Positions 2,578 through 51,772 of a stretch of DNA of 64,000 bases are shown in pieces. The notes under the pieces are model-generated. The model was given only the letters and a program-made list of their open reading frames with translations, was not told the DNA's origin and did not search any database. The translations under genes and the position numbers were made by a program. This stretch comes from Lysinibacillus sp. B2A1 (GTDB lineage Bacteria; Bacillota; Bacilli; Bacillales_A; Planococcaceae): NCBI GenBank assembly GCA_002973635.1, contig CP027224.1:2986501-3050500 (forward strand), read 5' to 3'. Each line of letters starts with the position of its first letter. Positions within the stretch are counted from its first letter, which is position 1.

Positions 2578-2919
2578 ATACAACTTCTCCTTTTACATTA
2601 TTTGTAACACATTATAATCATCGGATAAAAAATAGAATACTTAACAATATTTAACAAAATTAACAATTGATTATTTAAATAAACTTATTATCACTTCAGA
2701 AAATGTTCATTTTAAGTAGATCCTAGCTGAACAATATAGCGTGTGTTTTGTTCCAAAACTCTCCCTTTTCTGAACATCTGTGTTTTTGATTAGAAAGGGG
2801 GATTTTTTATTGCTTTAAATGTAATAAAACCCTGTTCATTATTCTATGTTCAATAACCAACACGTTCTCATCTTATGTTACAATGGAATCAAAGCAAAAA
2901 TGAGAAAGAGTGATACTTG

Positions 2920-3513
2920 ATGTTAATTGGATATGCATGTGTGTCGACAGGATTACAAAATTTAGATTTACAAACAGATGCGTTAACACAATATGGTTGT
3001 ACAAAAATTTTTCACGATAAAATGAGTGGGGCAAAAAAACAACGTCCAGGTTTAGAGGAAGTACTTCAGTATGCACGTGAAGGTGACACCATTGTCGTTT
3101 GGCGATTGGACCGACTAGGACGTAACATACAAGATTTGATTCAAATTGTGAACAGCTTAAATGAATGTGGTGTTGGCTTTCATAGTCTTCAAGAAAATCT
3201 AACAATGGACAAAAGTAATGCAACCGGGCAATTAATGTTTCACTTGTTCGCAGCATTTGCGGAATTTGAACATAATCTAATCGAAGAACGCTCTGCTGCA
3301 GGTCGAGCAGCTGCAAAGGCACGTGGACGTCTAGGTGGACGTCCGGAGAAGTATGGACCAAAAGATATTGAAATGATGAAGGCTTTAATTGAAAGTGGTA
3401 CACCAATTAAAGATGTTGCAGAAAAGTGGGGCGTATCTCGGACGACGATTTATCGCTATTTAGAAAGAGAGAAGCCAGGTACCTCTACAACACACAATCC
3501 AGCCGATTCCTGA
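2920..3513 (+). CDS. Serine recombinase (Tn3-type resolvase/invertase)
   Basis: A 197-residue small serine recombinase. The N-terminal catalytic domain keeps IGYACVST with the nucleophile Ser in the VST motif (usually RVST; here the Arg is replaced by Cys, ACVST), the DRLGRN helix and the FAEFEHNLIEER segment; the C-terminal HTH contains VAEKWGVSRTTIYRYL. The loss of the usual Arg before Val-Ser in the active-site strand is notable. The last residues run into a dispersed repeat, so the natural stop was probably lost. It may be the tnpR of a decayed Tn3-like transposon whose tnpA debris is seen near 53.5 kb. ATG is used; a TTG directly before it is also possible. Confidence 0.8.
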   Translation: MLIGYACVSTGLQNLDLQTDALTQYGCTKIFHDKMSGAKKQRPGLEEVLQYAREGDTIVVWRLDRLGRNIQDLIQIVNSLNECGVGFHSLQENLTMDKSNATGQLMFHLFAAFAEFEHNLIEERSAAGRAAAKARGRLGGRPEKYGPKDIEMMKALIESGTPIKDVAEKWGVSRTTIYRYLEREKPGTSTTHNPADS

Positions 3514-3660
3514 ACCCTGCTTATGGATCACCGAAAACACCAGGTACGCAGCTGGTAGATTTGTTTCTTATGAACTGCATCGATCAAGCCAGGAATCTCT
3601 GCATGTGGTAATTATTTTGATGTCTTATTCATTAGTGTGGGTTTGAAATAAAGTTGAACT
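3478..3660 (+). repeat. Dispersed repeat copy A (core plus one terminal repeat)
   Basis: The core contains the words AAGCCAGGTACCTCT, CCTGAACCCTGCTTATGGA, AAAACACCAGGTACGCAGCTG and GATCAAGCCAGGAATCTCTG. Closely similar words in the same order occur at 7600-7800 and 46655-46765. The right end at 3640-3657 (GGTTTGAAATAAAGTT) is a version of the terminal repeat of the copy at 46641-46793. The 3' end of the recombinase gene reads into this copy. Confidence 0.6.
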
Positions 3661-3729
3661 GTTTATAAAAAAGTCGCACCGTTTTGAAAAAAGTTTAACC
3701 GTTTAGGTTTGGATCAGGGCAGATTAATT

Positions 3730-3759
3730 TTGCACGCTTTTTCTCATACATGCTATACT
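3730..3759 (+). promoter_or_regulatory. Promoter of the erm leader transcript
   Basis: TTGCAC at 3730-3735 and TATACT at 3754-3759 are separated by 18 bases and lie just upstream of the first leader peptide. Confidence 0.6.
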
Positions 3760-3787
3760 TATTGTAAGTATGCAAGGAGGGGTTCTA

Positions 3788-3844
3788 GTGGGTATATGTT
3801 GTATATTTGTAATTAATATCCTTATTTATGATTTTAAAAATTAA
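3788..3844 (+). CDS. erm leader peptide 1 (18 aa)
   Basis: A GTG-started reading frame preceded by a strong AAGGAGG seven bases upstream encodes MGICCIFVINILIYDFKN. It shares MGI and the uninterrupted core IFVIN with the second leader peptide behind it. The IFVI core is the known macrolide-dependent ribosome arrest motif of the ErmC leader. Known two-leader erm genes (ermA, ermG) have a first peptide of different sequence as far as I recall, so an arrest core in both is unusual. Translation is inferred from the ribosome site and the motif. Confidence 0.65.
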   Translation: MGICCIFVINILIYDFKN

Positions 3845-3870
3845 AATTCATAATAAAGGAGAATTAATAC

Positions 3871-3904
3871 ATGGGCATTTTTAGCATTTTTGTAATAAAT
3901 ACAG

Positions 3905-3930
<26 letters not shown>
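3871..3930 (+). CDS. ermCL: erm leader peptide 2 (ErmCL-type, 19 aa)
   Basis: The encoded peptide MGIFSIFVINTVHYQPNEK is nearly the classical ErmC leader peptide, differing at three positions by memory (Ser to Asn in the arrest core flank, and near the C-terminus). AAAGGAG lies nine bases before the ATG. With a macrolide bound, the ribosome is known to stall on the IFVI core, which frees the downstream erm start site. Confidence 0.92.
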
Positions 3931-4728
<798 letters not shown>

Positions 4729-4825
4729 TAGAAATCTAATATTCGAAAAATGGGTGCTTTAATGGAGAAAATATCATAGAAATAGTCAAAATTTTTTATA
4801 AAAGAATGATTCAATAAAATATATT

Positions 4826-4872
4826 AAGAGGGTTTTTTGATTAATCTTTTTTCAAAAAACGCTCTTTCTTTT
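4826..4872 (+). terminator. Terminator-like hairpin after erm
   Basis: Arms AAGAGGGTTTTTTGA and TTCAAAAAACGCTCTT form a long hairpin followed by a T-rich run, about 100 bases after the erm stop. A short sequence resembling the erm start region (around 4762-4798) lies between; it could be debris of a second copy. Confidence 0.55.
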
Positions 4873-5215
4873 TGCATGTTTATCAAGGTTATTAGTATTA
4901 ACTTGATCAATCTTTATTCTAAAGCTACAGATGAAAAAGTTGATTTATGTGATTCTTGAAAAATTTTAATCAAACTTTTTTATAAAAATTAACTTCATAC
5001 GTAAACAAAGTCTACTTATTTTGATTAAACTTTAATTTAAACTGAGTGGATTTCTTCCATATAGAATCAATGTTCATGACTTGCTTTTAATCAAACTTTA
5101 TTCCAAACCAACAATTAAAAAGAAATTTTATACTTTCTAACAAAATTAACTGAAAAGTGTGTTATTATAACAATATGTTATTTATTACAAAATATAGTGT
5201 ATATTTCAATAAAAA
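4873..5215. repeat. Irregular array of ATCAAACTTTATT repeats
   Basis: Four related copies occur in the same direction at about 4907-4931, 4968-4990, 5020-5044 and 5086-5111, each starting near ATCAAWCTTT and ending near AAACYRAC or AAAGCTAC. The same word is the terminal repeat of the element at 46641-46793 and occurs inverted at 8910-8936. No gene is seen here. Confidence 0.5.
5208..5215 (+). repeat. 8-bp target-site duplication, left copy
   Basis: AATAAAAA directly abuts the left inverted repeat of the ISL3 element; the same eight bases follow its right end at 6532-6539. Eight-base duplications are characteristic of the ISL3 family. Confidence 0.85.
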
Positions 5216-6634: not shown

Positions 6635-7594
6635 ATGACAATCGTTGATATTGAGCAAAAAGCTTATGAAGAATTGAAATGGTATGCTATTAGAGAATTA
6701 AACGCACAACCTAATTCATTTACAAACCCTAGTTTATATAGTTATAACATTAATAATGCAGATGCTGTGCCATATATAGTAAATTTTAAATCTAATCCTC
6801 AAATATTATTAACATCTGTTCAAGTTTTAACAAATGATACAAGTATACAGCAATCCCAAACGCTTAAATTTTCACAAAAGTGTACAGAGACTACTACAAC
6901 AAGTACCACAACTGGATATAAGATTGGCACAAGTATTAAATCTACTACTAAAGGTAAAATAAAAGTAGGATTTTTAATGGCTGGAGAGATCGAACAAACT
7001 GTAGAAGTATCTTTAACAGGGGAATATAATCATAGTACTACTCAAACTACAACAAGTAGTCATGAAGAATTGTGGGAATATACTCAACCTGTACTAGTTC
7101 CTGCTAGAAGTAAAGTTATAGCGACAATGTATATTATGGGAGGCCCTGTTACAGTTCCTATGACCTTATCTGCCAATATTGCTGGAACTGGAGTCTCCCC
7201 AAAAGGGAGTCCTTATTCTTTTTCAAAAATATATTTTAAAAAACAAAATTCTTCAGCTAATTCTTCGTTATCAGCTAGGGCATCGGTCCTTTATAATCCA
7301 AAATGGCCTGGGTATTCTCCTGTGTTTACAGGAGTAGGAGAAAATTATTCATTAAATGTAGAAGGCGCATCTATTAGTTCAAATACAGTTAGCTTATATT
7401 CTTATGTAGAATTCAAAGAATATCCATTATCTACTGATACTGCTAATCTTGTTGCCGTTCCAATGAGAGAATATTATTCTACGCCAATTCTTAGAGATGG
7501 TACGCCTGCGCTTATTCCAGCGGATTCATTTAACCCATATTCAAGATTTGCCTCTGTAGATCATAATGCACATTCAATGAGTGAAGAGGAGTGA
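6635..7594 (+). CDS. ETX/MTX2-type aerolysin-like pore-forming toxin
   Basis: A 319-residue protein. The central part (about residues 66-165) shows the pattern of ETX/MTX2 toxins: NDTSIQQSQTLKFS, long Ser/Thr-rich strands alternating with hydrophobics, a putative membrane-inserting hairpin around KVGFLMAGEIEQTVEVS, then VLVPARSKV before a further beta-rich half. There is no signal peptide, unlike Mtx2/Mtx3 but like parasporal Mpp proteins, so it may be released on lysis or packed in spores. GGTGG-type ribosome site precedes the ATG. It lies 103 bases behind the ISL3 element, which may separate it from its old promoter. Target host cannot be predicted; it could be insecticidal by family resemblance. 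Confidence 0.75.
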   Translation: MTIVDIEQKAYEELKWYAIRELNAQPNSFTNPSLYSYNINNADAVPYIVNFKSNPQILLTSVQVLTNDTSIQQSQTLKFSQKCTETTTTSTTTGYKIGTSIKSTTKGKIKVGFLMAGEIEQTVEVSLTGEYNHSTTQTTTSSHEELWEYTQPVLVPARSKVIATMYIMGGPVTVPMTLSANIAGTGVSPKGSPYSFSKIYFKKQNSSANSSLSARASVLYNPKWPGYSPVFTGVGENYSLNVEGASISSNTVSLYSYVEFKEYPLSTDTANLVAVPMREYYSTPILRDGTPALIPADSFNPYSRFASVDHNAHSMSEEE

Positions 7595-51506: not shown

Positions 51507-51529
51507 ATGGTTAAAATGTAAATAACTGA

Positions 51530-51772
51530 ACACGATGATGGGAAGTAGTAGCAAGCACGTTTTTTTTAGAGAGTCAGCGGTTGGTGGAAGCTGATAGAAG
51601 CACTTGTGAATCCGTCCTGGAGTTGCACAGTCGAAGTAAATGTAAGTAGGCTGTAGCCGGCTGAAATGCCGTTATGAAATAAGTGGATTAGGTATATGCC
51701 TAATCAATTAGGGTGGCAACGCGGGTAGCTCTCGTCCCTTTTTAGGGAAGGGGGCTTTTTTGTGTTTATTTT
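51530..51772 (+). ncRNA. T-box riboswitch upstream of serS
   Basis: The leader holds AGAGAG in stem I, the T-box core GGGTGGCAACGCGGG (51711-51726) and a terminator (CTCGTCCCTTTTTAGGGAAGGGGGC plus T run; arms CCCTT / AAGGG). A TCC triplet in GAATCCGTCC (about 51609) is a candidate serine specifier. It senses uncharged tRNA-Ser. Confidence 0.92.

Follow-up and report, generated by a model that had tools for sequence, protein, structure and literature searches.

Why should a single erm gene be preceded by two short open reading frames that carry the same IFVIN core, is the first of them a genuine leader, what would it do, and where did it come from? The question is raised by a 64-kb stretch of Lysinibacillus sp. 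B2A1 DNA (hereafter the window, meaning the whole stretch that was analysed), in which a sequence-only reading had placed tandem IFVIN leaders before an ErmC-like gene. Both peptides lie where that reading put them and read as it gave them (Table 1). The locus is a variant of the known two-leader attenuator of the ErmA type, here placed before an ErmC/T-like gene; the attenuator is real and probably functional.

Table 1. Features of the erm locus and of the element that surrounds it, in window coordinates.
Feature	Position	Strand	Description
Element left end	3636-3705		starts TGTGGGTTTGAAATAAAGTT...; dispersed in same-genus genomes
Candidate -10 element	3754-3759	+	TATACT with TG upstream; by eye, by analogy with TGCTATAAT before L1 of L008
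Shine-Dalgarno 1	3774-3780	+	AAGGAGG; spacing 7 to L1 start
Leader 1 (L1)	3788-3844 (stop included)	+	GTG start; peptide MGICCIFVINILIYDFKN
Predicted L1 stall site	3812-3814	+	codon 9 in the P site, by inference from ErmCL
Predicted hairpin	3809-3870	+	L1 tail arm 3809-3837 with 3841-3870; closes L2 Shine-Dalgarno
Shine-Dalgarno 2	3855-3861	+	AAAGGAG; spacing 9 to L2 start
Leader 2 (L2)	3871-3930 (stop included)	+	ATG start; peptide MGIFSIFVINTVHYQPNEK; ErmCL-type
Inverted repeat	3932-3976	+	3932-3949 with 3959-3976; 94% complementary; ErmC-type attenuator core
erm Shine-Dalgarno	3981-3987	+	GGAGAGG; spacing 6 to erm start
erm	3994-4728	+	23S rRNA adenine methyltransferase, 244 amino acids; ATG start at 3994
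Element right part	4740-5113		ends inverted ...AACTTTATTCCAAACCAACA

Two leaders and the gene that follows them

Leader 1 is 18 amino acids long with IFVI at residues 6-9, and the complete IFVIN motif occupies residues 6-10 in both leaders, the register known from ErmCL; 26 bases (3845-3870) separate the two reading frames. An in-frame ATG at 3770 would provide an alternative L1 of 24 amino acids. This codon is preceded by a Shine-Dalgarno match of only 4 bases, and the GTG at 3788 is therefore the likelier start. By analogy with the promoter stretch of the related Salibacterium locus, transcription might begin near 3766, downstream of the candidate TATACT; this -10 element was absent from the output of the promoter scan.

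The possibility that L1 is a chance reading frame was considered and rejected. Positions 3666-3850 were dinucleotide-shuffled 20,000 times per motif for three motifs (IFVIN, a looser form and the loosest form), and the shuffles were searched for short reading frames with the motif inside the first 12 residues. Such frames appeared in 2, 9 and 36 of the 20,000 shuffles, respectively, and a frame that also had a Shine-Dalgarno appeared in none of the 20,000 for any motif (0, 0 and 0). When both strands of the 64-kb window were scanned with the loosest motif, four short reading frames were recovered, and only L1 and L2 had a Shine-Dalgarno.

The methyltransferase passed the broad NCBIfam Erm model (273.6 bits against a cut-off of 212) and stayed under the cut-off of every named class among the 25 of 32 NCBIfam families shown, which include Erm(C) (433.7 against 530 bits), Erm(G) (417.1 against 515), Erm(A) (326.9 against 475) and Erm(B) (263.2 against 525). 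The protein is 86.5% identical to that of Salibacterium salarium (L008), 78.3% to that of Virgibacillus (L011), 77.9% to Erm(T) (L003), 75.8% to Erm(C) (L005), 72.5% to Erm(G) (L006) and 57.2% to Erm(A) (L007). By the naming rule, identity below 80% defines a new Erm class, and the identities given here cover part of the named classes. The genome is one 5.5-Mb contig with a single erm of this kind. A second copy was sought and none was found at E 0.001, the only other match being a 26% relative that we take as a housekeeping RsmA-type enzyme. Matches to erm at E 1e-30 or better were present in one of 60 relatives (a member of another family) and in none of the 31 genomes of the same genus, so the gene was probably acquired.

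The gene lies within a segment (3636-5113) whose left end starts with TGT and whose inverted right end finishes with ACA, with subterminal repeats. The two ends agree in 18 of their first 20 bases, and the flanking sequences ATTAG and ATTAA, a candidate 5-bp target duplication, are alike in four of five. Such TGT...ACA inverted ends with subterminal repeats mark Tn7-like elements, and this segment may be one; searches for TnsA and Mu-transpos_C gave no match in this genome, and 14 control genomes likewise gave none. The left end was matched in 19 of 32 genomes (own included) and in 17 of 20 within the genus, and 25 of the 60 left-end matches start at 3636 (query base 16). In another genome (G007, locus L074) the left end and the right-part repeat, the latter short of its last bases, enclose a MerR/TipAS-type gene within about 1.26 kb, so small mobile cassettes of one gene each may form a family. 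Upstream of the leader region lies a serine resolvase (2917-3513), which over most of its length matches plasmid resolvase DNA at 78-87% identity in the best 12 of 1783 records; the repeats and the resolvase are common to Lysinibacillus plasmids, among others. An ETX/MTX2-domain protein (6635-7594) is encoded 1.9 kb beyond erm, with an ISL3 transposase in between. At gathering thresholds Rfam matched the window only at a T-box leader (51526-51742) and gave nothing in the erm leader region.

First leaders at other erm loci

A scan of one genome per species, covering 84,980 species with six peptide patterns and reaching close relatives only, returned 36 loci, 35 of them erm and one (L043) a 21% relative. 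The sequence ahead of each erm was read over up to 420 bases with a Shine-Dalgarno or motif filter. An intact first leader was present in 9 of the 35 (L008, L009, L014, L016, L017, L038, L039, L040 and L042) and an L1-like frame without the usual start codon, recognised by eye, in one that kept its L2 (L036). Two loci have an RLR-type leader instead (L012 and L037), and seven have a lone L2-type leader (L011, L015, L018, L019, L020, L030 and L034). No leader was recognised in the remaining 16; L013 and L026 offered fewer than 100 readable bases, and L041 is without both leaders. Further two-leader loci came from class genomes with an erm match (10 of 398; L046), from viral contigs (L054 and L066) and from a search that matched 5 of 397 genomes (L063 and L064). 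L2 of L063 stops after ten residues, and that of L064 (MGMFSICVFKK) has lost the IFVI core and reads ICVF. L045 has L1 alone and L053 neither leader; no leader was found in L044 and L055, and L061 had 50 readable bases. Loci L047-L052 are ErmB-like, and all remaining matches are extra copies of loci already counted.

Comparison of L1 and L2 with other erm leaders, which the sequence-only reading had proposed as a check, thus established that similar first leaders precede other erm genes. In the ErmC-like clade the core of the first leader is FVI(D/N): MGICCIFVIN in the window, MNNCCTFVID in L008 and MGNCSLFVID in L009, L014, L016, L017, L054 and L066. In the ErmA-like clade it is mostly AVV: MCTSIAVVE in Erm(A) (L007), MCTSIAVVD in L045, MGITSIAVVD in L038, MCISIAVTK in L039, MCSSIAVVD in L046, MCTCIAVVD in L063 and MCASMAVVD in L064. 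The same reading had taken the first leader of ermA and ermG to be of a different sequence, and L1 does differ from the first leader of Erm(A), MCTSIAVVEITLSHS (L007). Sharing of a core between both leaders, as in the window, is also seen in L038, with a different core (IAVV).

Six peptide words from first leaders of this kind have no occurrence in the open-access literature, outside which subscription papers mostly lie, and among the papers listed by literature searches of the same mostly open scope none was seen with two IFVI leaders before erm. Among the best 40 of 317, 30 of 305 and 30 of 219 plasmid and phage records, and a further 1 of 1, no match spans a first leader of the FVI kind, a negative limited by the fact that blastn would overlook a 57-nt stretch at 60% identity. 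In those best 30 of the 305 plasmid records, the part that resembles the leader of the window starts at 3841 or later, in the last bases of L1 or beyond. By eye, Erm(T) has a promoter stretch like that of L008 that leads directly to the L2 Shine-Dalgarno. A leader-tail tandem repeat seen by eye in a Staphylococcus aureus erm(C) plasmid (L067) was rejected as a candidate, with no second leader that runs from start to stop.

Several of these loci are of interest in themselves. In two Amphibacillus species (L012 and L037) the RLR leader MTPSGRLRQQTLNNK takes the place of an IFVI leader 267-317 bases before an ErmC-like erm, and resembles the ErmD leader type. In L041 and L053 both leaders are gone as a single block, by eye, and the downstream inverted repeats remain; their upstream stretch is identical, and the two may be one sequence. 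Loci L014, L016 and L017, whose Erm is similar to theirs, have both leaders. The erm frame of L017 and L054 starts with ATC where relatives have ATG. L018, L019 and L020 are ErmC loci that resemble one another, each at 75% to the query, and sit on 3.7-3.8-kb contigs. Their assemblies belong to three genera that are unrelated (Streptomyces, Saccharibacter and Modicisalibacter), and these contigs look like a shared contaminant plasmid. Finally, positions 2440-2560 of Streptococcus phage YS771 (L059) contain the start of an ErmG-type leader with an IFVIE core, which leads into the beginning of an acetyltransferase-like CDS next to a Vat gene.

Folding of the leader region and order of events

The codons just past the L1 core are complementary to the Shine-Dalgarno of L2. 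In the window the predicted energy of the resulting hairpin is -21.2; shuffles gave -14.4 +/- 2.7, and 4 of 300 reached an equally low value. The hairpin leaves the L2 Shine-Dalgarno unpaired with a value of 0.19. Each locus was folded separately because a MAFFT alignment of the ten leaders shifted the Shine-Dalgarno columns. A short fold, from 22 bases before L1 through the L2 start with 300 shuffles per row, was applied to 11 rows, consisting of ten loci (L036, without an L1 start codon, included) and L017, which is nearly a copy of L016 and carries an insert. L009, L014, L040, L042, L054 and L066 were left out as near copies or broken, L016 being folded in place of L009, which has the same leader peptides and a broken erm. 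In all 11 rows the L2 Shine-Dalgarno was unpaired less than the mean of its 300 shuffles. Shuffles as low in accessibility and in energy numbered, respectively, 26 and 4 for the window, 7 and 7 for L008, 88 and 12 for Erm(A), 7 and 4 for L038, 0 and 34 for L039, 8 and 36 for L046, 7 and 17 for L063, 8 and 26 for L064, 30 and 62 for L016, 131 and 98 for L017 and 40 and 83 for L036. Energy is unremarkable in the last three of these, and accessibility in Erm(A) and L017. Since the loci share ancestry, the folding tests are not independent.

A stalled ribosome was modelled on the last codon of the L1 core, covering 14 bases before to 16 bases after the P-site base. In the short fold this stall made the L2 Shine-Dalgarno more accessible in every one of the 11 rows. 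It was again more open in all nine rows of a longer fold (the 11 rows without L017 and L036), rising from 0.19 to 0.84 in the window, and went only from 0.30 to 0.47 in a 275-nt fold of the window that extends further at the 3' end.

The second half of the proposed switch is less tidy. With L1 stalled, the erm ATG was still at 0.00 in 8 of 9 loci of the longer fold. With L2 stalled at codon 9, it rose from 0.00 to 0.54 in the window (0.62 in the 275-nt fold), and it opened by at least 0.1 in 6 of the 8 loci in which it had been closed (longer fold), reaching 0.93 in L007, 0.79 in L064, 0.72 in L038, 0.18 in L008 and 0.11 in L039. In L016 it stayed at 0.00 on the L2 stall and reached 0.37 with both stalls, in L063 it remained at 0.00 under either arrangement, and in L046 it was open at the outset (0.76) and dropped to 0.43. 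The erm Shine-Dalgarno is mostly unpaired without drug, at 0.62 or more in 8 of 9 loci and at 0.90 in the window (0.79 in the 275-nt fold). The L2 stall made it less accessible in six of nine loci (0.90 to 0.67 in the window), left it unchanged in one and made it more accessible in two (L007 and L046). An erm Shine-Dalgarno that these models leave open without drug, and that falls on the L2 stall, is unexplained by a simple masking picture, and the modelled opening of erm folds less clearly than the step from L1 to L2.

Three properties of the ErmC system bear on what such stalls would do. Induction of ermC requires only a stall with Ile9 in the P site (PMC13148051), ErmCL stalling requires the cladinose sugar (PMC10314930), and ErmCL is contrasted as macrolide-specific with ketolide-responsive leaders (PMC13410324). 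Ketolides are reported to act on ermC via frameshifting (PMC8274638).

We consider it likely, guided by the folding models, that the locus operates as a drug-gated cascade through a two-leader ErmA-type translational attenuator that controls an ErmC/T-like methyltransferase. The two reading frames, their cores and the complementarity in related loci are observed, and the opening and closing are computed. Given transcription and translation of both leaders, the events would run in the following order. Without drug, the L1 tail would be folded onto the L2 Shine-Dalgarno and the erm start codon would be buried in a second structure. A cladinose macrolide, the drug range that ErmCL suggests, would stall a ribosome on L1 with Ile9 in the P site, covering about 3798-3828. 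This stall would prevent the first hairpin and leave the L2 start open, and a second drug-bound ribosome that stalls at Ile9 of L2 would then open the erm start. A second drug-sensing step is the role of L1 that we favour, from the modelled pairing of its tail with the L2 Shine-Dalgarno. We count the ErmCL-register core of both leaders and the occurrence of two leaders in both Erm clades for the cascade, and the GTG start of L1 and the L2 of L064 without an IFVI core against it.

The main rival of the cascade is control of mRNA stability. Here a ribosome stalled on L1 near the 5' end would chiefly shield the transcript, and L2 alone would set translation. L1 is close to the expected 5' end (by eye), and the literature gives this role for ermAL1 alongside the cascade (PMC8274638) and reports drug-induced stabilisation for ermCL-ermC (PMC5118997). 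By itself, however, stabilisation does not predict that post-core codons of L1 should pair with the L2 Shine-Dalgarno in relatives, and we regard it as unlikely to be the chief role. We give still less credit to a decayed or little used L1 with the gene acting as a plain single-leader ErmC-type system. The GTG start, the three residues by which L1 exceeds the 15-residue first leaders, and locus L036, in which the L1-like frame lacks the usual start codon and L2 is retained, speak for decay, but the strong Shine-Dalgarno at good spacing, the intact core and the hairpin to the L2 Shine-Dalgarno speak against it. The cascade is also favoured by the two-leader loci as a group, whose first leaders differ in sequence and are able to pair with the second Shine-Dalgarno, and these natural loci are ready material for its test.

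Origin of the first leader and comparison with known systems

The sequence-only reading had derived L1 from a duplication of L2. Identities over 66 core-aligned nucleotides in ten loci lend no support to a recent copy. L1 has 53% identity with its own L2, less than with the L1s of L016 (62%) and L008 (61%), and it is therefore unlikely to be a recent duplicate. Its identity to the other seven L1s is 35-41%, and to the L2s of six other loci 55-61% (61% for L007 and L063). A recent tandem duplicate, functional or otherwise, would fit the shared IFVIN core and register, the codons of that core (three of five identical, the remaining two differing in the third base only) and a within-locus identity that, together with L008 (53% each), tops the range of 27-53% over the ten loci, but it is highly improbable given that L1 is closer to L1s with LFVID and TFVID cores (L016 and L008) and to the L2s of six other loci than to its own L2, and that L1-type leaders also occur in the distant ErmA-like clade. 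A very old duplication that gave rise to both leaders is possible, as their sequences go. The kinship of L1 with ErmA-like first leaders resides in position and layout more than in sequence.

A tree was built from 38 translated erm genes, of which 13 near copies or broken genes were removed to leave 25 rows. The ErmA-like clade of seven rows (support 98/94) comprises six two-leader loci and one that has just L1. On the ErmC-like side, with 17 rows (support only 86/71), there are four two-leader loci (L016 and L017 are near copies), one startless L1, seven single IFVI leaders, one RLR leader and four rows in which no leader was found. A single ErmB row falls outside both groups. The two-leader label requires five changes on the tree, and 15 of 500 shuffles required equally few. 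The two-leader layout is thus present in both main clades. We read this distribution as suggesting that the two-leader form is old, with later losses; independent gain is possible. L1 was most likely inherited from a two-leader ancestor, and the single-leader Erm(C) and Erm(T) systems have probably lost it.

We advance one broader proposal tentatively, with the odds somewhat against it. The two leaders may form a serial two-key gate, in which both sense the same cladinose macrolides by the same IFVIN core, giving less leak and a steeper dose response. This gate would have been ancestral to the Erm(A), Erm(C) and Erm(T) group, and the single-leader ErmC switch would derive from it by deletion. 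The two-leader loci do suggest that the ErmC switch of the textbooks arose by shortening of such a form.

Among known systems, Erm(C) and Erm(T) resemble the window in L2, in the sequence downstream and in an enzyme 75.8-77.9% identical to that of the window. L2 differs by one residue from the Erm(T) leader and by two from that of Erm(C). Unlike the window, the Erm(C) and Erm(T) copies examined (L003, L004 and L005) have no L1. Erm(T) is likewise described with a single IFVI leader, as is erm(A) in the isolates of that study (PMC11836684), and a survey of erm uORFs reports uORF families and, in the parts covered, does not name a leader of the window type (PMC11264731).

The loci of Salibacterium (L008), Siminovitchia (L016), Ornithinibacillus (L017), Aliibacillus (L014) and Globicatella (L009) resemble the window in having two leaders, with an FVID core at residues 7-10 of the first and, in the three that were folded (L008, L016 and L017), a hairpin to the second Shine-Dalgarno. 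Their first leaders have 15 amino acids and read TFVID or LFVID, whereas that of the window reads IFVIN. L2 starts with TTG in L016, L017, L014 and L009, unlike the ATG of the window, and erm is broken in L009.

For Erm(A), the literature states stalling for both leaders, calls their interplay not clearly understood and gives both the cascade and the mRNA-stability models (PMC8274638), and describes inverted repeats IR1-IR6 (PMC12698558). The ErmAL1/ErmAL2 arrangement is like that of the window in its two short reading frames with Shine-Dalgarno sites before erm, in the IFVIN core of the second leader and in a first-leader tail that can pair with the second Shine-Dalgarno. It differs in a first leader of 15 amino acids with IAVV at residues 5-8, where the window has 18 amino acids, IFVI at residues 6-9 and a GTG start, and in an enzyme only 57.2% identical to the Erm of the window.
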